Below, in pieces: positions 20,912-24,643 of a stretch of DNA of 34,339 bases. The first letter of the stretch is position 1; the number at the start of each line of letters is the position of its first letter. Location: NCBI GenBank assembly GCA_024276095.1, contig JAJRXW010000008.1, forward strand, positions 1-34,339, in the 5' to 3' direction. The DNA comes from Gammaproteobacteria bacterium (GTDB lineage: Bacteria; Pseudomonadota; Gammaproteobacteria; Steroidobacterales; GCA-2729495). The notes beneath the pieces were generated by a model. That model did not search any database. It saw nothing but the letters and a program-made list of their open reading frames with translations, and had not been told where the DNA came from. The position numbers were made by a program, and so were the translations under genes.

Positions 20912-23749
20912 TCAGGCTGCCTTGTGGCGCTTGAGTAACGGTGCCAGGTACTGCCCGGTATACGATTCCGGTGTGGCGGCAACCTGCTCCGGTGTGCCTT
21001 TTGCAACCAGCATGCCGCCGCCGTCGCCACCCTCCGGGCCCAGATCGATGATCCAGTCGGCTGTCTTGATCACGTCCAGGTTATGCTCGATGACCACGAC
21101 TGTATTGCCCTGGTCGCGCAGCCGTTGCAGTACGGTCAGCAAATGGTCGATGTCCTGGAAATGCAGCCCGGTAGTGGGTTCGTCCAGGATGTACAGCGTG
21201 CTGCCGGTGGCACGCTTCGACAGTTCCTTGGCCAGCTTGACGCGCTGCGCCTCGCCGCCTGACAGCGTGGTGGCGTTCTGGCCGAGCTTCAGATAAGGCA
21301 GGCCGACATCGTCGAGCGTCTGCAGTTTCCGCGCAGCGACCGGCACGTTGGCAAAAAACTGCAGCGCATCCTCCACCGTCATTTCCAGTACCTCGTGAAT
21401 GTTCTTGCCCTTGTAGCGCAGTTCCAGGGTCTCGCGGTTGTAGCGTTTGCCCTTGCATCAATCGCAGGGTACGTAGATATCGGGGAGAAAATGCATTTCA
21501 ACACGAATGACGCCGTCACCCTGGCAGGCCTCACAGCGTCCGCCCTTTACGTTGAAGCTGAACCGTCCCGGCTTGTAGCCGCGGGCACGCGCTTCGGGTG
21601 TGCCCGAGAACAAATCACGAATGGTCGTAAACAGGCCCGTATAGGTGGCCGGATTCGATCGCGGCGTTCGGCCAATGGGGCTCTGACTGATGTCGATCAC
21701 CCGATCGACAAGATGCAGGCCGTCGATACCGTCGCAGGGAGCAGGGCCATGGCTGCTCTTGTTGAGCACTTCCGCGGCGGTCTTGTACAGGGTGTCATTG
21801 ATCAGCGTCGACTTGCCGGACCCGGATACGCCTGTAACACAGGTGATCAGCCCCAGCGGAATACTGACATCGAGTTTCTTGAGATTGTTGCCGCGTGCGC
21901 CGCGGATTCCGAGCATCAGTTGCGGGTCTGGCGCAACTCTGTGCTCGGGCACCATGATTTTCTTGATCCCCGACAGGTACTGGCCGGTCAGGGAGGTCGG
22001 ATGATTGATGATGTCTGAAGGCGTACCCTGGGCAACGATTTGCCCGCCGTGTACGCCGGCGCCGGGGCCGATATCGACCACGTGGTCACTGGAACGAATG
22101 GCTTCCTCGTCGTGTTCGACCACCAGCACCGTGTTGCCCAGGTCGCGAAGACGCGTGAGCGTGTTCAGCAGTCGCTGGTTGTCACGCTGGTGCAGACCAA
22201 TGGAAGGCTCGTCGAGGATATACATCACGCCGACCAGGCCGGAGCCGATTTGACTGGCCAGCCGGATACGCTGCGCTTCGCCGCCCGACAGGGTTTCGGC
22301 ACTTCGATCCAGGGTCAGGTATTCCAGCCCCACATCGGCAAGAAAGCGAACCCGGTTCTGAATTTCCCTGACGATTTTCGCCGCCACCTCACCGCGCCAG
22401 CCGGCCAGATCGAGGTTATCGAAAAATTCCAGTGCCTCACTGACCGACATGGATGTTATCTCCGGGATGCAGCGGTCCTGGATGAATACATTCCTTGCCG
22501 CGATATTCAAACGGGTACCGTTGCAGCCGGGGCAGGACTGCACGCTCAGGTACTTGGCCAGTTCTTCCCGGACCATGCCCGATTCGGTCTCGCGATAACG
22601 GCGCTGCAGGTTGGGCAGAATGCCCTCGAAAGAATGGGTCCGGGAAATGCTGACGCCGCGACCGGTGACGTACCGGAACTCGATTTGTTCGTCTCCACTG
22701 CCCGAGAGCAGCATCTCCCTGGTCTGTTCGCTGAGTTCCTCGTAGGGCGCTTCGATATCGAATTTGAAATGATCCGCCAGGCTCTGGATCATCTGGAAAT
22801 AATACGCGTTGCGGCGATCCCATCCGCGAATCGCTCCTCCGGCAAGACTGAGATTGGGGTATCTGACTACGCGGTGAGGATCGAAAAACTGTCGTACACC
22901 GAGACCATCGCATTCCGGACAGGCGCCGCTGGGATTGTTGAACGAGAACAGCCGCGGCTCCAGTTCCGCAATGCTGTGGTTGCAGACCGGACAGGCGAAG
23001 CGGTCGGAGAACAGCAGTTCGGGCCGGTCGTCGCGATCCATCCAGGCGATCCGGGCGATTCCGTCCGCCAGATGCAGGGCGGTTTCGAAAGACTCGGCGA
23101 GCCGCTGGCCGATATCCTCACGAACCTTGAACCGGTCCACCACCACTTCAATGGTGTGCTTGCGCCGCAAATCCAGCTTGGGCGGATCGTCCAGTTCGAC
23201 CACTTCATGATCGATGCGGGCGCGAACGAAACCCTGAGCGCGCAGATCGGCGATCAGCTGCAGGTGCTCTCCCTTGCGGTCCTGAATGACCGGTGCCAGC
23301 AGCAGTAGCCGGCTGCCGGACTCAAGCGCCAGTACCTGGTCGACCATCTGGCTGACCGTCTGGGCCTCCAGGTCGAGTTTGTGTTCCGGGCAGCGCGGGC
23401 TGCCGGCCCGGGCATAGAGCAGCCGGAGATAGTCATAGATTTCGGTGACGGTGCCGACAGTCGACCTCGGATTATGGGAGGCGGATTTCTGTTCGATGGA
23501 GATGGCAGGCGAAAGTCCTTCGATATGGTCGACGTCGGGTTTTTCCATCATGGACAGAAATTGGCGCGCATATGCGGACAGCGACTCAACATAACGCCTT
23601 TGGCCCTCGGCATAGATGGTGTCGAATGCCAGGGACGATTTGCCCGATCCGGACAAACCAGTGACCACAATGAGCTTGTCCCGGGGCAGGTCCAGGTCGA
23701 CGTTCTTGAGATTGTGGGTCCGGGCGCCCCGGATACTGATCGTCCGCAT
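20912..23749 (-). pseudogene. uvrA: Excinuclease ABC subunit A, full length but broken by one in-frame TGA
   Basis: UvrA is the damage-sensing ABC ATPase of nucleotide excision repair. The reading frame runs from ATG 23749 ([20 protein letters not shown]) to TGA 20912 and would give 945 positions, close to the E. coli length of 940. Present are both Walker A motifs ([20 protein letters not shown]), both signatures ([30 protein letters not shown]), both Walker B motifs ([28 protein letters not shown]) and the zinc modules. Codon 764 (21458-21460) is TGA, inside the second CxxC of the C-terminal zinc finger (VPCD-stop-CKGKRYN). Without readthrough, the second signature and Walker B are lost. 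There is no frameshift and both sides are well conserved. It is divergent from ssb. Confidence 0.93.
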
Positions 23750-23833: not shown

Positions 23834-24037
23834 GAAATTCATGCCAGGCCTCGGTGCGCGAGCGGGGCAGGGCTCAGCAGCGGCGGGAGCGGGGCGCGTG
23901 TTCCGGGACTGTGTCCCGCATGGACGCGGGACGCAAGCCCCCATGGACGGGTTCACGGCGGGTCCCGGAACACGCGCCCCGCTCCCGCCGCTGCTGAGCC
24001 CTGCCCCGCTCGCGCACCGAGGCCTGGCATGAATTTC
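23834..24037. repeat. Large perfect palindrome (76-bp arms) between uvrA and ssb
   Basis: Arms 23834-23909 and 23962-24037 are exact reverse complements over 76 bp, with a 52-bp centre. Outer ends read GAAATTCATGCCAGGCC; inner ends read GTGTTCCGGGAC. The arms are more GC-rich than their surroundings. The asymmetric centre has its own hairpin (GTCCCGC at 23913-23919 with GCGGGAC at 23926-23932) and then CCATGGACGGGTTCACGGCG. That core is reminiscent, from memory, of dispersed palindromic repeats in gammaproteobacteria. Folded, it would make a cruciform or RNA hairpin of nearly 200 bases. It fills almost half of the 438-bp gap between uvrA and ssb. I see no other copy here and no target-site duplication. 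Open frames across it are by-products of the palindrome. Confidence 0.9.
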
Positions 24038-24187: not shown

Positions 24188-24643
24188 ATGGCACGGGGCA
24201 TAAACAAGGTGATCCTGATTGGGAATCTCGGCCAGGATCCTGAGGTCCGTTACATGCCCAGCGGCTCAGCAGTGACCAATATATCGGTCGCGACATCCGA
24301 GTCCTGGAAGGATAAAGAGACCGGCGAGCAGACCGACCGGACCGAATGGCACAAGGTCGTATTTTTCGGCCGGCTGGCAGAGATCGCCGGTGAATACCTG
24401 CGCAAGGGCTCCCAGGTCTATATCGAGGGGCGGCTGCGAACCCGCAAGTGGCAGGATCGCGAAGGCGGCGATCGCTACACGACAGAAATCGTCGGCGATC
24501 AGATGCAGATGCTCGGCGGTCGTGGTCAGGGTGGCGGGCAAGCCGTCGCTCAGCCGAGAGCGGCGGCGGGTGCACCCGCGGGCGCACCGGCGTCTGCAGC
24601 CCCGGCGGCAGCACCGGAGTTCGATGACGACATACCGTTCTGA
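24188..24643 (+). CDS. ssb: Single-stranded DNA-binding protein
   Basis: This 151-residue SSB has an N-terminal OB fold ([47 protein letters not shown]...[39 protein letters not shown]). An Ala/Pro/Gly-rich flexible linker follows, and the protein ends in the acidic tip EFDDDIPF that recruits repair and replication partners. It coats single-stranded DNA as a tetramer. The frame is open upstream to 24029, inside the palindrome, but the ATG at 24188 gives the conserved N-terminus. It is divergent from uvrA, a common pairing in this class, and is followed by a strong terminator. Confidence 0.96.

Follow-up and report, generated by a model that had tools for sequence, protein, structure and literature searches.

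Long perfect palindromes are regarded as unstable in bacteria. Among described systems, the closest to the element reported here are the REP/BIME sequences and the RAYT-associated TIRs, which are likewise high-copy intergenic palindromes with a strand-specific fold, frequent close inverted pairs and a preference for gene 3′ ends (PMC3733652, PMC8266576). REPs measure 20-50 bp, however, while our element spans 100-300 bp, carries no GTAG/CGTC tag, is not associated with a Y1 gene and has a three-way-junction head and arms that are unique to each copy. A second relevant system is the quasipalindrome, in which synthesis templated by a hairpin at replication overwrites one arm of the inverted repeat with a version copied from the other (PMC7202029, PMC8604942). 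The same kind of rewriting is suggested by our data, but it was described for individual mutational hotspots or genes, whereas here about 30 loci share one putative seeding repeat and appear to have grown into their flanks. Many long, perfect and locus-specific palindromes per genome are also known from the mitochondria of Nematomorpha (PMC6649704); those are coding, lie inside genes and have no shared head, while the ones described here stop at genes. Finally, the Csr/Rsm-binding hairpins of RsmZ-type RNAs resemble the head in presenting two close ANGGAX hexaloops directly on stems (PMC4005645). In contrast to such RNAs, which derive from one sRNA gene, the copies are dispersed and show no orientation to transcription, and csrA was not found in this genome.

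Results

The window analysed, a 34,339-nt stretch of gammaproteobacterial DNA, contains a palindrome between uvrA and ssb (23834-24037; Table 1). In agreement with the original prediction, the two 76-nt arms are 100% complementary, without a single mismatch, around a 52-nt asymmetric centre, and they separate two divergent genes, with the UvrA start at 23749 on the minus strand and the SSB start at 24188 on the plus strand. Chance is excluded as the origin of the 76-nt arm match. The centre had been thought to form its own hairpin; a hairpin is present, but the predicted fold contains two of them side by side. No other inverted repeat scoring ≥18 with a gap of ≤80 nt occurs in the 34-kb window. 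The uvrA gene is interrupted by an in-frame TGA at 21458-21461 (minus strand), downstream of which the same frame goes on; either a nonsense mutation or a sequencing error is responsible.

Table 1. Features of the uvrA-ssb palindrome and its neighbours (window coordinates)
Feature	Position	Strand	Basis or remark
Left arm of outer stem (P1), 76 bp	23834..23909	+	Family sequence in the inner ~20-25 bp; outer ~50 bp particular to this site
Hairpin P2: 10-bp stem (one G-T), hexaloop ATGGAC at 23920-23925	23910..23935	+	Fold; covariation in 40 relatives
Hairpin P3: GCCCCC-ATGGAC-GGG-TTCAC-GGC, hexaloop ATGGAC at 23943-23948, conserved 5-nt bulge TTYAC	23937..23959	+	Fold; compensatory variant TCC/GGA
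Right arm of outer stem, perfect complement of left arm	23962..24037	+	
uvrA, first part, 763 aa followed by in-frame TGA	21458..23749	-	Left bound; start 84 bp from palindrome
ssb	24188..24643	+	Right bound; start 150 bp from palindrome

The suspicion that the centre belongs to a dispersed repeat was borne out. BLAST against the assembly that contains the window (2.87 Mb in 322 contigs, several of which end inside copies) detected the centre at 33 places, corresponding to about 30 distinct loci because a few are duplicate contig ends, and further copies exist in other Gammaproteobacteria. Complete uniqueness, the outcome named beforehand as speaking against a repeat, is thus ruled out. Each copy in this genome is itself palindromic around a 52-nt centre that is nearly identical between copies, giving about 30 palindromes of which the largest measures 304 bp. 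Arms reach 126 bp and are shorter where a contig ends within the copy. When different copies are compared, only the inner 20-25 bp of the arms are common: identity falls from 0.86 to the chance level by 25-30 bp. Within a copy, on the other hand, arm identity is near 100%, with 5 mismatches in 1864 pairs. The inner 20 bp contain none at all, and the inner 30 bp only 3 in 844 pairs against 160 in 2414 pairs in other genera (p=1e-17). These long arms are almost devoid of G-T pairs, and on the head strand their outer parts are rich in G, with CAGGG recurring.

The arms also respect the neighbouring genes. No arm reaches more than 12 bp into a gene, where 4.2 of 17 copies would be expected to do so (p=5e-5), and among copies whose nearest feature is a gene 3′ end, arm length correlates with the distance to that end (r=0.78, p=1.5e-4). 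As read from the sequence, this genome clearly carries nearly perfect stems of up to 126 bp that are site-unique beyond about 25 bp and bounded by genes.

A search for exact matches to a hairpin P3 pattern retrieved at least 117 stretches of genome contigs, and the matches listed include Stenotrophomonas, Xanthomonas, Marinobacter, Microbulbifer, Rheinheimera, Saccharospirillum, Methylotuvimicrobium and other genera. Occurrence is patchy (22 of 369 genomes in a sample of Gammaproteobacteria), and copy numbers can be high, with 89 in Stenotrophomonas maltophilia SJTL3, 97 in Marinimicrobium and 134 in Methylotuvimicrobium buryatense. Stems of 25-30 bp are typical in these genomes, and the arms of orthologous copies show paired changes in other genera too. 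Of about 237 copies, not one falls within a predicted gene. Where a copy has a neighbouring gene on each side, convergent arrangements are commoner than divergent ones (33 against 12), and in tandem-gene gaps orientation is near even (27 sense, 34 antisense), these context counts being based on gene calls by simple scoring. In S. maltophilia there are 19 close pairs, all of the (-,+) type and 252-382 bp apart. Divergent (-,+) pairs were likewise observed among the S. maltophilia and Marinimicrobium elements (L253-L292), with about 40-280 bp of mostly unique DNA between the members; the Marinimicrobium copies have conserved edges, 5′ TGGCACTGA and 3′ GGAC. A single element is cleanly present in one and absent from the other of two Stenotrophomonas strains (L074 versus L112).

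The family was not matched in plasmids or phages, nor was the element found in a literature search by sequence string. Searched against Rfam at E≤1, the window hit only microRNA precursor models, all below their cut-offs, which is what any long hairpin produces; seven relatives gave nothing at the element at the gathering threshold. No palindrome scoring ≥20 occurs outside the family in 141 kb of DNA around its copies. A lagging-strand rule was abandoned, S. maltophilia singletons pointing one way (p=0.025) and M. buryatense the opposite way on skew-defined replichores. Two pairs whose members are 1.3-1.5 kb apart were considered as an autonomous version and rejected, as they enclose ordinary host genes.

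The copies share a predicted architecture in which the stem P1 ends in a head of 52-53 nt; this head forms a three-way junction, and its two hairpins both have ANGGAY hexaloops. P2 consists of a variable stem with its hexaloop, while P3 combines the hexaloop with a conserved TTYAC bulge. Among 40 aligned sequences, both partners vary in 23 of the 28 base pairs (covariation score 0.739 versus 0.182 when shuffled). Because P1 had been collected by palindromy, the head was also scored alone and still gave 0.492 versus 0.135. The apparent invariance of P3 arose because the search pattern had fixed it: mismatch-tolerant searches revealed a variant in several genera in which a C-G pair is replaced by T-A (AGCCTCC..GGATT). 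Comparison of the sequences thus establishes the family, its predicted architecture and the covariation.

Mismatches in the stems of 116 relatives distinguish the two strands. The stem extension weighted every mismatch type equally. On the head strand we counted 99 G.T/T.G, 55 A.G/G.A, 16 G.G and 7 A.A mismatches, against only 13 A.C/C.A, 4 C.T/T.C, 2 T.T and no C.C of the complementary types. The contrast was kept in non-redundant contexts from about 40 taxa (93 versus 13, p=5e-16). Such strand-specific mismatch types point to selection of the head strand as a single-stranded fold, and we are confident that in most hosts this strand folds single-stranded, as RNA or ssDNA.

The uvrA-ssb gap of a sister species (G001) provides some history. 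The head was not found there by DNA search, but the gap retains homologous outer arms in decayed form, GAAAAGCAGGCCAGGCCTC / GACCCTGACCTGCTTTTC. The corresponding pair in this genome reads GAAATTCATGCCAGGCCTC / GAGGCCTGGCATGAATTTC, both sides being altered together relative to G001; several adjacent bases differ between the two species (TTCAT here, AGCAG in G001), with complementary changes on the two sides. The homologous arms and the paired changes indicate that the palindrome most likely predates the species split and that its arms have been changing together. Recent formation, one of the possibilities raised for such a perfect palindrome, is therefore wrong at this locus. Between its decayed outer arms, the G001 gap also holds a different perfect palindrome, with 41-bp arms and a 14-nt loop (L337:401-496); it is single-copy in G001 and unrelated, and was dropped as a candidate second family.

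Discussion

We favour, with moderate confidence, the interpretation that this is a REP-like family without a RAYT, whose arms in the present genome have been homogenised and extended, probably by template switching during replication. Active conversion between arms, proposed at the outset, fits the data best, given the near-100% identity within copies, the copy-specific outer arms and the paired changes at uvrA-ssb. Hairpin-templated synthesis at replication, switching from one arm to the other, would keep the arms identical and lengthen them, and a switch that overshoots would copy flanking DNA of one side inverted to the other side. Growth would halt where a coding sequence or promoter would be damaged. 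Perfect arms, site-specific outer arms and arms that stop at genes could all be explained in this way. The stronger version, that the head seeds growing palindromes which mirror their own flanks until they reach coding sequence, so that about 30 loci would record template switching, is a tentative proposal that we consider possible but somewhat doubtful. G-rich arms with CAGGG would not be expected if random flank were simply copied, and no donor flank could be named. The family itself would have been dispersed through mobility or copying, by machinery other than a RAYT.

Compensatory selection could also have kept the arms matched. It leaves unexplained the lack of G-T pairs, lengths far above those of the family and the site-specific outer arms. 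In particular, RNA selection alone would leave G-T pairs, which are almost absent here. An arrival resembling transposition that duplicated the target flank in inverted form would create the outer arms at once, without gradual growth or correction. Site-specific outer arms suit this explanation, as does the clean presence and absence of one element in the two Stenotrophomonas strains, but we judge it unlikely: the coordinated differences from the sister species at uvrA-ssb indicate that matching went on after the species split, arm lengths follow gene boundaries, no transposase was found beside copies and the larger pairs enclose ordinary host genes. Part of the arm perfection could stem from the fragmented assembly of 322 contigs. 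That simplification of a short-read graph perfected imperfect arms, or made the mirror arm, altogether is very unlikely even in a draft where several contigs end in copies; the arms are perfect right beside the asymmetric head, a place where bubble popping is impossible, relatives from complete genomes share the architecture, a few mismatches survive and the outer arms end at gene boundaries. Only marginally less credence is due to selection for a long hairpin acting as bidirectional terminator or insulator at each site. Every copy is intergenic, convergent contexts are favoured and the sister species has its own perfect 41-bp palindrome in the same gap. However, the uvrA-ssb context is divergent, a T-run after the arms is absent, and a terminator needs neither a conserved head nor perfect arms of 126 bp.

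The family is REP-like in the broad sense of being present in many copies, intergenic and palindromic. A classical REP/RAYT pair, with the palindrome as substrate of a Y1 (TnpA-REP) transposase, would be in line with its short intergenic palindromes, high copy number, preference for convergent gene ends and strand-specific fold, and there is one Y1 gene in this genome. The proposed link failed, and we regard it as barely credible. The element is absent from all 24 Y1-transposase loci inspected, of which 23 come from element-bearing genomes and one from this genome; 4 of 12 element-bearing genomes have no Y1 gene, and the sole Y1 match here, at a contig start (L052:17-790), contains an in-frame stop, TAG. 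The flanks and heads of copies from three genomes show no GTAG or CGTC tetranucleotide beside a hairpin. Four Y1 genes of S. maltophilia are flanked by their own, unrelated repeats, and for that reason the self-complementary TIR family of this species (PMC3733652) was dropped as well. After Pfam and motif searches, a covariance model and flank inspection, a RAYT as the spreading machinery is excluded as far as testable.

A high-affinity Csr/Rsm site is defined as an ANGGAX hexaloop directly on a stem (PMC4005645), and both head loops have this form. If transcribed, the head would be a candidate binding site or sponge for CsrA/RsmA with two high-affinity hairpins, and selection on the head RNA would keep the stem paired. 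Such a role would be compatible with the ANGGAY loops, which almost every copy has conserved alongside a covarying P2 stem, and with the tolerance of G-T on one strand. On the other hand, a search for CsrA (PF02599) had no match in this genome, which is 99.7% complete, though a draft could miss a 60-aa gene. A gammaproteobacterium without CsrA is unusual. Copies between tandem genes are about equally sense and antisense, no recurrent promoter was apparent in front of the copies, and neither the lack of G-T pairs in the arms nor their site-specific extension here is explained. The reading of the family as a Csr/Rsm RNA element appears rather improbable, marginally more so than the insertion scenario, and we keep it as a hypothesis for other hosts.

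Against the expected instability, one genome contains about 30 palindromes of up to 304 bp, and one locus has been kept perfect across a species split. Such palindromes would allow palindrome growth and homogenisation by template switching to be measured in sequence data alone. In addition, the family represents a widespread, apparently structured element that is neither in Rfam nor in the literature searched, with loops that match the Csr/Rsm site in sequence and predicted fold.

The copies themselves can be associated with other repeats. In some S. maltophilia copies a second repeat (CTTGCCGTGTGCGCAGGA..CGCACACGAGCAAG) is inserted in the P2 loop (L142:1300-1660; L259, L260, L271). In Marinimicrobium, another repeat, a CTACATGGATGTAG hairpin with an ATGGAT hexaloop, lies beside or inside copies (L273, L274, L275, L282, L288).
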